A stretch of DNA of 64,000 bases from assembly GCA_020846005.1 (NCBI GenBank), contig JADLEQ010000055.1, positions 62,001 through 126,000 of the forward strand, given 5' to 3'. The notes beneath the pieces are model-generated. The model was not told the origin of the DNA. It ran no database searches and saw only the letters and a list, made by a program, of their open reading frames with translations. Positions 11,209-14,929 of the stretch are shown one piece after another (position 1 is the stretch's first letter; each line of letters opens with the position of its first letter). The position numbers were made by a program, and so were the translations under genes. The DNA is from Polyangiaceae bacterium. Its GTDB lineage: Bacteria > Myxococcota_A > Polyangia > Polyangiales > Polyangiaceae.

Positions 11209-12804
11209 TCACTTCGGCGCGACGGGCGCCACCGTCCAGGGCGAGCTGGTGGTGTCGACGATCATCAGCCCGAAGCCGTTCGAGCTGCCGCCGAAGTCGC
11301 CGGTCGCGAGCACGAAGGCCCGCAGCCCGGCGGTCAGCGTCAGGTCGAACTCGGCGGCCGTGGCCGTGGAGCCGGCTGCGGCGAAGCCGAGCGTCACGGC
11401 CCCGGGCGTCAGCGCGGCGCCCGCGGCGGCGCTGGCGTCGGGGAACGCCACGCCGGCGTAGAGCGGCGGGGAGTCGAGGGTCCCGGCGGTCGTGACGGTG
11501 CCGATATCGACACTCGGTGCGTTGCTCGACGCGTGGACCGCGCGCACCACCGCGCTGCCCGCCGATCCGAGGTCGAACCCCTCCTCGAGCGGGAGCAGCT
11601 GGAACGTCGCCGGGGTGGCGCCGAGCTGCCCGACCGCCGCGGCGAGGTAGCTTCCCCCGGCCGCGAGCGCGGGCGTCGTCGCCGAGGCCGCTGGGGCGCC
11701 GGCGGGCCGAGGCGTCGGGCCGGCGACCCCTGCGAAGAAGTCGAGGGTGTACGCGCCCGGCGGGACCTGGAGGCGCGCCATCGCGCCGTACGGCGCGTTG
11801 TCGACCAGCTCCGTGGCGCCCGCGTAGATGTCGACCGCCGGAGCGTCCGGGCTGGCGTGCAGCGCGTAGACGACCGGATCCTGCTTCACCGTGGCCGTGG
11901 GGGAGTCGGTCGTCGACGCGGGCAGCACCGCGAGCAGCGAGAAGCCGCGCTCCTGGCGAGGCAGCGCCCCGAGTTCGCCGACCGCGATGAGGAGCACGTT
12001 GGCAGCCGCCGGGATCACCGTCGGCGTGGTGAACCCGGTGACGCGGGCGCCGCCAGCGCGGATCGCCACCGAGAGCGCGGTGGCCGCAGGCAGATCGACG
12101 CCCGCCGCCGGGGTGTCCGTGAACCGCGCCAGGCCGGTGATCTCCGACGAGCCGTCGTCGCCCACGTCGATGTCGACGGTGGGGGCGTCGTAGCTCGCGT
12201 GCACGACACGAGCTCGGAAGCTGCCGCTGGCGGCGGCGTCGAAGTCCTCCTCGAGCGCGAGGACACGGAACTGATCGTCGGGGCTCGAGGAGCCGAAGCT
12301 GCCCGCCGCGATCGCGACGTACGACCTGCCGGCCTCGAGCGTTAGATCGGGGCTCGTGAACGCCGGCGCGCTCGAGGCGGCGGCGCCTGCGGCGCGGAGG
12401 TCGACCGCGAAGGTGCCGGCCGGCAGCTCCAGGTAGCTCGTCGCCTCGCCGTACGCGAAGTTGGTCACCGCGGCGGTCGAGGCGCCCTTCGCGTAGATGT
12501 CCACGGCCGGAGCGTTCGCGGAGGCGTGCACGACGCGTAGCCGGGCTGGCGCACCAGCGTCGGATCCTCCGGCGCCCGCCATGCCGCCGGCGCCCGCCAT
12601 GCCGCCGGAGCCCGCCATGCCGCCGCTGCCGGCGGAGCCGCCGGAGCCCGCCATGCCGCCGGAGCCCCCGCTGCCCGGGGAGCCGGCGGAGCCGCCGGTG
12701 GCCGCCGCGCCGACGTCGTCGTCGTCGCTGCAGCCGGCGAGCAGGCCGAGCCCGGCGAGGGCCAGAGAGCCGAGAATCGTGAAGCGCATCGTGGGTCGAG
12801 TCAT
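11209..12804 (-). CDS. Lipoprotein with four DUF4397 repeats
   Basis: Surface lipoprotein of 531 residues. The signal peptide ends in the lipobox LAGC (Cys25), followed by four Asp residues, a Gly/Ala/Ser/Met linker of about 50 residues, and four DUF4397 domains. Each domain opens with the same strand: LRVVHASANAPAVDIYAKG, ARVVHASYDAPTVDI, VYALHASPDAPAVDIYAGA and VRAVHASSNAPSVDI. The family role is not known; such proteins are common in Myxococcota. AGGAAG sits seven bases before the ATG. The 258-base upstream region carries a 10-bp motif also found just before the neighbouring MerR-B12 gene, which suggests control by that regulator. Confidence 0.92.
   Translation of the reverse strand: MTRPTMRFTILGSLALAGLGLLAGCSDDDDVGAAATGGSAGSPGSGGSGGMAGSGGSAGSGGMAGSGGMAGAGGMAGAGGSDAGAPARLRVVHASANAPAVDIYAKGASTAAVTNFAYGEATSYLELPAGTFAVDLRAAGAAASSAPAFTSPDLTLEAGRSYVAIAAGSFGSSSPDDQFRVLALEEDFDAAASGSFRARVVHASYDAPTVDIDVGDDGSSEITGLARFTDTPAAGVDLPAATALSVAIRAGGARVTGFTTPTVIPAAANVLLIAVGELGALPRQERGFSLLAVLPASTTDSPTATVKQDPVVYALHASPDAPAVDIYAGATELVDNAPYGAMARLQVPPGAYTLDFFAGVAGPTPRPAGAPAASATTPALAAGGSYLAAAVGQLGATPATFQLLPLEEGFDLGSAGSAVVRAVHASSNAPSVDIGTVTTAGTLDSPPLYAGVAFPDASAAAGAALTPGAVTLGFAAAGSTATAAEFDLTLTAGLRAFVLATGDFGGSSNGFGLMIVDTTSSPWTVAPVAPK
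12571..12660 (-). repeat. 18-bp tandem repeats encoding the Gly-Gly-Met-Ala-Gly linker
   Basis: Five 18-bp units. Units 1 and 2 are identical, units 3 and 5 are identical to each other and differ from unit 1 by a single base, and unit 4 is diverged. They encode the flexible linker of the DUF4397 lipoprotein, and copy changes would stay in frame. Confidence 0.85.
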
Positions 12805-12885
12805 GGTTTGGTCTTCCTCCGTTCGGTGGGGCGAGACATGGTCTAGAGCTGGACAAACATTCGTCAATCGATTCATCCAACGTTT

Positions 12886-12895
12886 GTCTAGGACA
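12886..12895 (-). promoter_or_regulatory. Candidate regulator site TGTCCTAGAC before the DUF4397 lipoprotein gene
   Basis: The 10-mer TGTCCTAGAC (minus strand) is repeated exactly at 14000-14009 before the MerR-B12 gene. A related TTTGTCC...TCTAGAC lies at 12841-12857. The stretch 12852-12888 also forms an inverted pair GACAAAC / GTTTGTC. The site is within a 258-base gene-free region that must hold the lipoprotein promoter. Confidence 0.5.
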
Positions 12896-13062
12896 CGCTC
12901 GGCCTGCGGCTCCTCCCTCGGCGGGACCGTCGCTGGCCTGCCCGGGCCGGCGCACGCCGCACCCCGCGGCCGAAATCCCTCCCCCGGTTGGCGGACTCGC
13001 TCCGCCCATGCCGTGGCGTCGCGACGCCGCCGCGGCGGCTTCCGCCCCCGTACGGCGCAGAC

Positions 13063-13992
13063 CTAGGCGAGCAGCGGCGCCGTGAACCGGGCGAGCCGCG
13101 CGTCGATCTCCGCCCACGCCGCGACGCGATACGTCCGCTCCTGGGCGAGGCCGAGGGTGGCCGCGCGCGCGCCGCCGACCCAGATCTCGATCGCGGGCGG
13201 GAGCTTAGAGCCGAGCCAGGCGATGCTCGCGGCGACCGTCTCGCCGTCGGCGCTCGCCGAGACCGACAGCCCGACCACGTCGACGCCGAGGGCGCGAGCC
13301 GCGTCGGCGATCTGATCGAGCGGAGCGTCCACCCCGAGCAGGCGCGGCTCGGCGCCGCGGAGCGCCAGGTAGAGGGCGGCCATCTCCAGCCCCAGGCCGT
13401 GGCTCTCGTGCGGCAGGGTGGTGAGCAGCACGACCGGGCGCCCGCGAGACTCGTAGGCGCTGAGCAGCAGCCGGAGCTGGGTCGAGAGCGTCTCGGTGAG
13501 GAGGTGTTCGTGCCGAACCTGGAGCTCACCGGCGGCCCAGCGCTCCCCCACCTGCGTGACCAGCGGTGCCGCGACCTCCATGAGGAACGCGCGGGGGCCG
13601 AGCGTGGCGACGGCCTGCCGGAGCAGCAGCTGGAGCGCTGTCACGTCGTCGTCACGGAGCGCGTCGATCATGCCCGCGAGCGTCGGGCTCTGATCGGTCG
13701 CCAGGTTGGTCGGTGCGTGGGCAGCCTCGAGCAGCGCGTGCCGGAGATCGTCGGGCGAGCGATGGATGACCTCTCCGGCGCGGTAGCCGGCCTTCAGCGC
13801 CCGCGAGATCAGCACCAGCCGCTCCACCTCGTCGGCTGAGTAGGCGCGGACGCCGTTCGGGTTCCGGACGGGCTTCGGGAAGCCGTAGCGGCGCTCCCAC
13901 ATCCGGAGGGTGTCGGCCGAGAGCCCGGTGAGCCGCGCCGTCACGCGGATCGAGTAGCCGTGCTCCTCGCTGGCGAGTCCGATGTCGTCCAC
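13063..13992 (-). CDS. MerR-family regulator with B12-binding domain, CarH/LitR type
   Basis: Light-sensing repressor candidate of 309 residues. Residues 12-80 form the MerR winged helix (VTARLTGLSADTLRMWERRY). The middle has the four-helix cobalamin cap with W152 followed nine residues later by Glu162-His163, which is the Wx9EH motif of adenosylcobalamin photoreceptors. The Rossmann part has ESHGLG (196-201), the ExHxxG motif whose His198 would be the lower cobalt ligand. These residues separate true CarH-type sensors from light-independent relatives. It starts with GTG; TAGACT six bases upstream suggests a leaderless mRNA. TGTCCTAGAC at 14000-14009 overlaps that hexamer, as expected for autorepression. 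The SDR gene ends 19 bases upstream. Confidence 0.92.
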   Translation of the reverse strand: MDDIGLASEEHGYSIRVTARLTGLSADTLRMWERRYGFPKPVRNPNGVRAYSADEVERLVLISRALKAGYRAGEVIHRSPDDLRHALLEAAHAPTNLATDQSPTLAGMIDALRDDDVTALQLLLRQAVATLGPRAFLMEVAAPLVTQVGERWAAGELQVRHEHLLTETLSTQLRLLLSAYESRGRPVVLLTTLPHESHGLGLEMAALYLALRGAEPRLLGVDAPLDQIADAARALGVDVVGLSVSASADGETVAASIAWLGSKLPPAIEIWVGGARAATLGLAQERTYRVAAWAEIDARLARFTAPLLA

Positions 13993-13999
13993 AGAGCAA

Positions 14000-14009
14000 G
14001 TCTAGGACA
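14000..14009 (-). promoter_or_regulatory. Candidate operator and -10 region of the MerR-B12 gene
   Basis: TGTCCTAGAC (minus strand) is identical to the site at 12886-12895. It overlaps TAGACT (13999-14004), which ends six bases before the GTG start, so a bound repressor would cover the promoter. Confidence 0.5.
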
Positions 14010-14011
14010 AC

Positions 14012-14929
14012 TCATGGACGAACGCCAGTCGACCCCAAGAGGGCGCCGAGGGCTGCGGGCAGCGTCGGATCGAGGAACTCGAAGCCCCCGGCCGCGAGCG
14101 CGGAGGGGTGCACCCGCTGGCTCGAGACGAGCACGCCCGTCACCTCGCCGAGGACGGCGCGCAGCGCGAAGCGGGGCGCGGGCAAGAGCGCGGGGCGGCG
14201 GAGCACCCGCCCGAGCGCCCGCGAGAAGTCGGCGTTCCGCTCCGGCGCCGGGGCGACCAGGTTGTGGGCGATCGATCCCTCGCTGTCGACCAGCCACTCC
14301 AGCGCGCGGACGACATCCCGGAGCGTGATCCAGCTCATGAAGTGACGCCCGTCCGCGACGGGACCGCCCGCGCCGAGCCGAAACAGCGGCAGCAGCTTCG
14401 CGAGCGCCCCGCCCTCGGGCGAGAGCACGATCCCGATCCGCGCGCGCGCGACCCGCACACCCAGCGGCTCCGCGGCCTGAGCCTCGCTCTCCCAGGCTTG
14501 GCAGACCTCGGCGAGGAAATCAGCGCCGGGCGCGCTCCGTTCGTCGAGCCACTCGTCGCCTCGATCACCGTAGTAGCCGATCGCCGAGGCCGAGACGAGC
14601 GACCGCGGCCTCCGCTCGATGGATCCGAGCGCCTCGACGAGCGTCCGCGTGCCGAGGACGCGGCTCTCGCGGATGCGGCGCTTCTTCTCCGCCGTCCAGC
14701 GGCCCTCCGCGACGCTCTCGCCCGCGAGGTGCACGATCGCGTCGACGCCCTCGAGCGCGCTCGCGTCGACCGTACCGCCCGTGGGATCCCACGCGATGTC
14801 GGTCTCTCGCTGCGGCGCGCCTCGTACGACGCGCCGCACCGTCCGCCCCTGGCTCACCAGGTGGCGCTCGAGCGCCGATCCGACGAGCCCGGAGGCGCCC
14901 GTGATCGCAACCGTCGCAGCGCGACCCAT
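14012..14929 (-). CDS. TIGR01777-family NAD(P)-dependent epimerase/SDR-like protein
   Basis: Extended SDR-fold protein of 305 residues. It has the nucleotide-binding GASGLVG (11-17), HLAGESVAEGRWT, and SASAIGYYGDRGDEWLDE, which are the hallmarks of the TIGR01777 (YfcH) family. The C-terminal region has VHPSALAAGGFEF as in that family. The substrate is not known. It lies directly upstream of the CarH-type regulator on the same strand, 19 bases apart; TIGR01777 genes are often found beside LitR/CarH-type genes in light-response clusters, so a shared role is likely but not shown. AGGAGG lies seven bases before the ATG. Confidence 0.9.
   Translation of the reverse strand: MGRAATVAITGASGLVGSALERHLVSQGRTVRRVVRGAPQRETDIAWDPTGGTVDASALEGVDAIVHLAGESVAEGRWTAEKKRRIRESRVLGTRTLVEALGSIERRPRSLVSASAIGYYGDRGDEWLDERSAPGADFLAEVCQAWESEAQAAEPLGVRVARARIGIVLSPEGGALAKLLPLFRLGAGGPVADGRHFMSWITLRDVVRALEWLVDSEGSIAHNLVAPAPERNADFSRALGRVLRRPALLPAPRFALRAVLGEVTGVLVSSQRVHPSALAAGGFEFLDPTLPAALGALLGSTGVRP

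Follow-up and report, generated by a model that had tools for sequence, protein, structure and literature searches.

The carH gene of a soil-type Polyangiaceae bacterium probably encodes an AdoB12-dependent repressor of the CarH/LitR family that binds DNA in the dark and is released by light. The predicted regulon comprises carH, a DUF4397 surface lipoprotein gene and, remote from both, the crtY-crtI-crtB cluster; it probably also includes an RpoH-like sigma factor gene. The carH gene lies in a stretch of 64,000 nucleotides (contig JADLEQ010000055.1 of assembly GCA_020846005.1), here referred to as the window, and the features of the locus are listed in Table 1. Members of the CarH/LitR family are best known for switching carotenoid genes. 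What appears to be new here is the surface-lipoprotein regulon of a CarH/LitR branch that is distinct from the crt-linked CarH of myxobacteria, and our data suggest that light alters the cell surface besides the pigments in this organism.

Our model starts from what the sequences themselves contain, namely, operators with exact spacing that are conserved from genus to genus and in different gene arrangements, and the cofactor residues. DNA binding, AdoB12 loading, release by light, repression and the surface location of the lipoprotein are the predicted steps. In the dark, AdoB12-loaded CarH oligomers would bind TnnACA half-sites in operators (TTGAC-n6-NTGTC or tandem 11-bp repeats) that overlap the −35 element or fill the −35/−10 spacer, and the bound oligomer would block RNA polymerase. 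Light would break the Co-C bond, CarH would leave the DNA, and the regulon would be transcribed.

Table 1. Features of the carH locus, in window coordinates
Feature	Position	Strand	Remarks
DUF4397 lipoprotein gene	11209..12804	−	531 aa; Pfam DUF4397 4.7e-50, 2 stretches
Lipoprotein layout			Lipobox LLAGC (read by eye), Gly/Ser-rich repeat linker, DUF4397 repeats
−10-like TAGACC, putative lipoprotein promoter	12840..12845	−	16 bp from −35
Core CarH half-site (predicted)	12850..12857		TTTGTCCA on minus; TGGACA (TnnACA) on plus at 12850-12855
−35 TTGACG, putative lipoprotein promoter	12862..12867	−	Pattern match C55:74852-74867 = window 12852-12867
Upstream CarH-type site GTGTCCTAGACAAA	12884..12897	−	Includes the 10-mer at 12886-12895; TnnACA = TAGACA, 12885-12890
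carH, CarH/LitR class-I-type MerR-B12 repressor gene	13063..13992	−	GTG start
Candidate operator TTGTCCTAGAC before carH	14000..14010	−	7 bp ahead of GTG
Degenerate neighboring 11-bp repeat TCGTCCATGAG	14011..14021	−	Position of −35 TTGAC in relatives (L034, L070, L073)
TIGR01777-family NAD-dependent epimerase/oxidoreductase gene	14012..14929	−	TIGR01777 300.5 bits, cut-off 207.35

Identity of the CarH protein

The original prediction of a CarH-type MerR-B12 protein that retains the Wx9EH and ExHxxG residues was borne out. Pfam recognized an N-terminal MerR DNA-binding domain (MerR_1, PF13411, 50.6 bits versus a cut-off of 21.6) and both B12-binding subdomains (PF02607, B12-binding_2, 36.8 versus 23; PF02310, B12-binding, 38.5 versus 32.1). 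The best PDB relatives were Thermus thermophilus LitR/CarH (1.4e-33 and 2.3e-33), and the AF2 model (45 rows; pLDDT 90, pTM 0.72) had TtCarH as its top fold match. The Wx9EH motif corresponds to W151, E161 and H162 and the ExHxxG motif to E195, H197 and G200; W151, E161, H162 and H197 (TtCarH W131, E141, H142 and H177) were invariant in 34/34 aligned orthologs. Against the NCBIfam CarH equivalog NF052513, the window protein scored 139.2 bits, below the curated 400-bit cut-off.

At a threshold of E<=1e-45, 34 carH copies were collected from 30 of the 108 genomes of the family, and the copy in the window was the only full carH homologue in its own genome. A protein tree of 60 rows, from which a truncated carH match (L090) was excluded, clustered the window protein with 32 other proteins of its family (support 86/81) and separated it (100/98) from a 16-row group that included crtI-adjacent paralogs (G006, G014, G022, G015, G004, G031, G033 and G020). 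Betaproteobacterial LitR-like proteins were nearer to it than this crt-linked group, and it did not group in the tree with the myxobacterial crt-linked CarH subfamily. The named relatives recovered in one scan came from Polyangiaceae, Sorangium, Labilithrix and unclassified Myxococcales assemblies. Collectively, these data support the assignment of the protein to the CarH-type AdoB12 photoreceptor family, on a branch that stands apart from crt-linked myxobacterial CarH.

Unlike TtCarH, to which it is about 32 % identical, the window protein lacks the equivalent of His132, the upper ligand in the light state of TtCarH that was needed for tetramer dissociation in one study (PMC10442372). The position is occupied by Ala152 in the window protein and by His in 0/34 clade members. 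This absence lends weight to a rival reading, which we consider unlikely, in which CarH binds the operators and represses the lipoprotein gene but the main signal is the level of AdoB12 or the oxygen/redox state; occupancy would then be set by AdoB12/redox because the photolysed form would stay assembled without His132. In line with this, TtCarH H132A was mostly still tetrameric after light (PMC10442372), although the same paper also cites an earlier report in which H132A disassembles. Moreover, His was found at this position in only 5/19 CarH/LitR paralogs and was absent from the other 14, so that it looks like a trait of TtCarH and some relatives and not a family-defining one. The published light signature consists of GxxW, EH, GxxH and GxxxP (PMC11796333), of which GxxW, EH and GxxxP were intact in 34/34 clade members, and carotenoid genes, a classical light output, belong to the putative regulon. 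GxxH has its G in 21/34 and reads HESH in the window protein, a departure that counts against the light switch. We retain light as the probable main signal, a reading that derives from the CarH residues and the family. This natural group of CarH proteins lacking His132 also offers a way to test what that residue does in the photocycle, which is disputed.

A promoter-operator at the lipoprotein gene and at carH

The original prediction rested on two exact copies of TGTCCTAGAC, and both are present on the minus strand, at 12886-12895 and 14000-14009. The genome scan for this motif, set beforehand as a check, found these 2 copies and none elsewhere in 5,704,377 bases. As the reversed pattern occurred 7 times in the same genome, the copy number alone proves nothing; what is notable is the placement, with both copies within 1.1 kb of carH. 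That the two copies arose by chance, or represent a generic promoter feature with no relation to CarH, would fit with 2 exact 10-mers in 5.7 Mb not exceeding the control. We find this hardly credible, given that the copies sit at carH and its neighbor and that, in relatives, the promoters of carH, DUF4397, crt and sigma genes carry identical or near-identical sites with exact 11-bp phasing.

The 10-mer is part of a conserved promoter-operator in which a −35 TTGAC is followed 11 bp on by NTGTC. Its building block is the TnnACA half-site known for CarH; the published CarH repeat is nnnnTnnACAn, arranged in tandem 11-bp arrays (PMC9304148). A split variant of the 10-mer had also been proposed at 12841-12857, and it does exist, as TTTGTCCAGCTCTAGACC on the minus strand, but it is better read as the conserved core operator between −35 TTGACG and −10 TAGACC. 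The TA start of this −10 element and the equal −35/−10 spacing are common to the promoters of the DUF4397 orthologs of G069, G068 and G014. The pattern TTGACN6TTGTC had a single occurrence in the genome, at the lipoprotein promoter. Neither this promoter nor the carH operator contains an exact tandem TnnACA pair, the sites at both genes being degenerate forms. A generic promoter scan returned no sigma-70 site at the locus, the lipoprotein −10 TAGACC falling below the scan threshold, and an Rfam scan of the window returned no cobalamin riboswitch and nothing but one tRNA. The palindrome TTGTCYWRGAC was also evaluated as an operator in its own right and is weak when taken alone, with 5 occurrences in the genome versus 12 for the reversed control; the 5 sites lie at crt, the lipoprotein gene and carH, before an RpoH-like sigma gene and inside one ORF. 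Within the lipoprotein gene, 9/18/54-bp tandem repeats (12569-12707) encode the Gly/Ser-rich linker, a possible length-variable spacer.

The copy at 14000-14009 had been placed in carH's own promoter. It does precede carH, but not in a free-standing promoter, since it sits in a gap of 19 bp between the stop of the oxidoreductase gene (14012) and the GTG of carH (13992). The operator at this place has no good −35, and the degenerate repeat TCGTCCATGAG overlaps the oxidoreductase gene end; the identical 11-mer TTGTCCTAGAC occurs at the same position before carH of G064 (L070). In G100 and G105, the gene order is ABC-F, thioredoxin-like and carH, and L072 and L073, which have this order, lack the TIGR01777 oxidoreductase gene. 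In the window, this gene stands between the thioredoxin-like gene and carH and ends 1 bp before the operator. TIGR01777 homologues were also found near carH in L075, L078 and L082. The two genes are possibly cotranscribed, and transcription of carH may now start at the promoter of the oxidoreductase gene, which would place the operator within the transcription unit. CarH remains likely to target its own gene as well.

Conservation of the operator at DUF4397 lipoprotein genes

DUF4397 orthologs (E<=1e-25) numbered 26 copies in 21 of the 108 family genomes. A carH ortholog was present in 16/21 of these genomes versus 14/87 of the others, genomes being counted regardless of kinship, and in 7/7 genomes with a close DUF4397 ortholog versus 23/101 others. 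The seven closest copies are that of the window and six at 56-61 % identity, and TTGACN6NTGTC was found upstream of six of them (window, G014, G068, G069, G024 and G065), being absent from the G036 ortholog (58 %). In Markov-resampled sequence, the chance of this pattern was 0.0003 per promoter, and the pairwise identity of the six promoters was 75 % in the 16-bp core versus 29 % and 26 % in the 45-bp flanks. The 19 more distant DUF4397 copies, one of which has no upstream sequence, lacked TTGACN6NTGTC; 2 of them (L149, L162) have other CarH-like sites.

The DUF4397 gene lies downstream of carH in the window, is convergent with it in G024 and divergent in G065, and is unlinked to it in G014, G068 and G069, where it lies either about 154 kb off or on a different contig. 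The original prediction of a matching operator at carH and at the lipoprotein gene is thus supported: the lipoprotein operator recurs at orthologous promoters in other genera, also where the genes are unlinked, and its retention despite gene rearrangement argues for coregulation and not merely shared ancestry of the locus. Because the architecture is found in 6/7 of the closest promoters with any arrangement of carH, control of the DUF4397 lipoprotein by CarH is well supported by comparative genomics. Read-through from carH into the lipoprotein gene was rejected as the whole story, as a conserved promoter-operator precedes the lipoprotein gene itself, even in genomes where carH is unlinked to it. 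Retention of the operator at orthologous surface lipoprotein genes after the genes moved apart points to selection for control of the surface by light (or B12) in myxobacteria, and it would provide a first regulatory context for the uncharacterized DUF4397 lipoproteins. The protein itself had no PDB relative at E<=1, and its AF2 model (2 rows) was poor (pLDDT 63) and all-beta.

Carotenoid and sigma factor genes as further likely targets

The lipoprotein had been proposed as a target in place of the usual carotenoid genes, and this part of the original prediction did not survive. The crtY-crtI-crtB cluster lies on contig C54 of the same genome, remote from carH, and the crtY promoter (G000 C54, L097:7278-7310) reads CTGGACAAAAG|CTGTACACATC|CTTGACGTGGC, that is, three tandem 11-bp repeats of which the first two are canonical TnnACA CarH repeats and the third holds the −35 element. 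With no other full CarH homologue in the genome, the CarH of the window is likely to regulate carotenoid genes as well, and its predicted control of the lipoprotein would come in addition to carotenoid control.

The exact TnnACA-N5-TnnACA arrangement occurred 3 times in the genome: in the crtY promoter, inside one ORF, which we take to resemble a flagellar hook gene, and before one gene that is presumably dnaA-like. The crt promoter thus carries the sole intergenic exact tandem pair besides that of the dnaA-like gene, and the window lipoprotein promoter carries none, as would be expected if CarH governed only itself and the crt cluster and the lipoprotein motif were a relic or a chance match at an independently expressed gene. 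We judge this very unlikely in view of the footprint in 6/7 close orthologs, including the unlinked genes of G014, G068 and G069, and of the genome-unique TTGACN6TTGTC at the lipoprotein promoter.

About 45 bp ahead of the start of an RpoH-like sigma gene on contig C19 lies TTTGTCCTGGACAG; the gene product scored 243.4 bits for subfamily PRK06596 (cut-off 241) and stayed below the cut-off of TIGR02392. Among the orthologs of this sigma gene, TTGACN6NTGTC was present in G022, G064 and G100 and absent in G105 and G007, while those of G014, G068 and G069 have degenerate operator forms at most; carH-adjacent sigma genes with CarH-type sites were found in G036 and G073. The RpoH-like sigma gene is a likely CarH target, less secure than the lipoprotein gene. 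In L126 (G073), the RpoH-like sigma gene that lies downstream of carH is immediately preceded by 4 tandem 11-bp CarH repeats and TTGACN6TTGTC, and its product is a candidate light-controlled heat-shock-type sigma factor.

Operator arrays at other carH loci

Motifs were counted over 33 carH loci, the truncated L090 being left out. In 18/33 loci, the window not being among the 18, the 300 bp upstream of carH contain a pair of exact TnnACA half-sites that share their orientation and are spaced 11 bp, and 8 loci have such a pair at 22 bp; other spacings of 6-40 bp occurred in 0-3 loci each. The 11-bp pair was absent from all 1065 control 300-bp windows from the same loci and present in 3/152 other intergenic regions, 2 of which precede sigma-factor genes adjoining carH. 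The pattern TTGACN6NTGTC, with the half-site 11 bp after the −35, was found 16 times when both strands of 372 kb were scanned: 10 sites precede carH by <=300 bp (that in L036 falls at another gene's end), 3 at DUF4397 genes, 2 at DCC1/sigma genes, and 1 is unrelated. In a wider sample of 80 named loci that included Betaproteobacteria, the exact 11-bp pair was found in 15 of the 78 loci with enough upstream sequence (8 from Polyangia, 7 from others). Within this sample, the partner genes of the window CarH clade were found in Polyangia loci only.

Relation to known CarH and LitR systems

Like the myxobacterial CarH proteins of M. xanthus, Cystobacter and Sorangium described in PMC9304148, the window protein combines a MerR DNA-binding domain with a B12-binding domain and is associated with TnnACA 11-bp repeat operators over the −35 element and with a carotenoid operon as a putative target. 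Unlike crt-linked myxobacterial CarH, it belongs to a separate branch (100/98), its gene lies away from crt, and a lipoprotein gene is among its predicted targets. For Labilithrix luteola, in which carH is unlinked, a CarH-type operator has been reported ahead of the gene (PMC9304148); the main text of this paper uses neither the word "fasciclin" nor the word "lipoprotein". With T. thermophilus CarH/LitR it shares the fold, the equivalents of W131/E141/H142/H177 and the operator half-site; unlike there, the half-sites here also occur as a −35/NTGTC pair in the promoter spacer, besides tandem repeats.

A regulon beyond carotenoids likens the window protein to proteobacterial LitR (P. putida PplR, P. 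mendocina PmlR; PMC9758184). In Pseudomonas, the regulon includes photolyase, a short-chain dehydrogenase and GTP cyclohydrolase I (PMC9758184), so that regulation by LitR beyond carotenoid genes is known in principle; oxidoreductase and GTP cyclohydrolase II genes adjoin carH in our loci. In contrast to the window protein, class II LitR is without part of the B12 domain and its operator is TGTACA-N12-TGTACA (PMC9758184), and the main text of that paper names no fasciclin target. In the open-access literature, we found no relevant paper on fasciclin with CarH, LitR, or light and myxobacteria, and no surface lipoprotein as a conserved CarH/LitR target, the matches for CarH/LitR with lipoprotein concerning other bacteria; papers on DUF4397 were unrelated, and RpoH with CarH returned one review.

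Genes adjoining carH

A predicted lipoprotein gene adjoins carH in 16/34 loci (fasciclin in 9, alpha/beta hydrolase in 4, DUF4397 in 3; lipoboxes read by eye), and genes for GTP cyclohydrolase II, a DCC1-like oxidoreductase and RpoH-like sigma factors recur nearby. These data are compatible with a broader reading, on which we are evenly divided: the Polyangiaceae would possess a second, His132-less branch of B12 photoreceptors with a light-dependent envelope change as its core output, each lineage keeping one surface lipoprotein (DUF4397, fasciclin or lipid-hydrolase-like) under the same operator, and an RpoH-like sigma factor widening the response beyond the direct targets. The fasciclin gene of the window's own genome (C71, L103) has no tandem CarH pair nearby.

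The fasciclin lipoprotein gene is divergent from carH in L037, L040, L053, L075, L079, L081, L082 and L089 and lies upstream of it in L036. In 8/8 divergent cases, the shared intergenic region contains tandem 11-bp CarH repeats, and the fasciclin/carH loci often continue with genes for GTP cyclohydrolase II and a DCC1-like protein. A radical SAM gene is divergent from carH in L039, L041 and L084; the protein of L041 has its own B12-binding domain, and those of L039 and L084 were assigned by an N terminus similar to that of L041. Tandem CarH repeats are present in L041 and L084, and at the radical SAM loci a B12 sensor may control a B12 enzyme.
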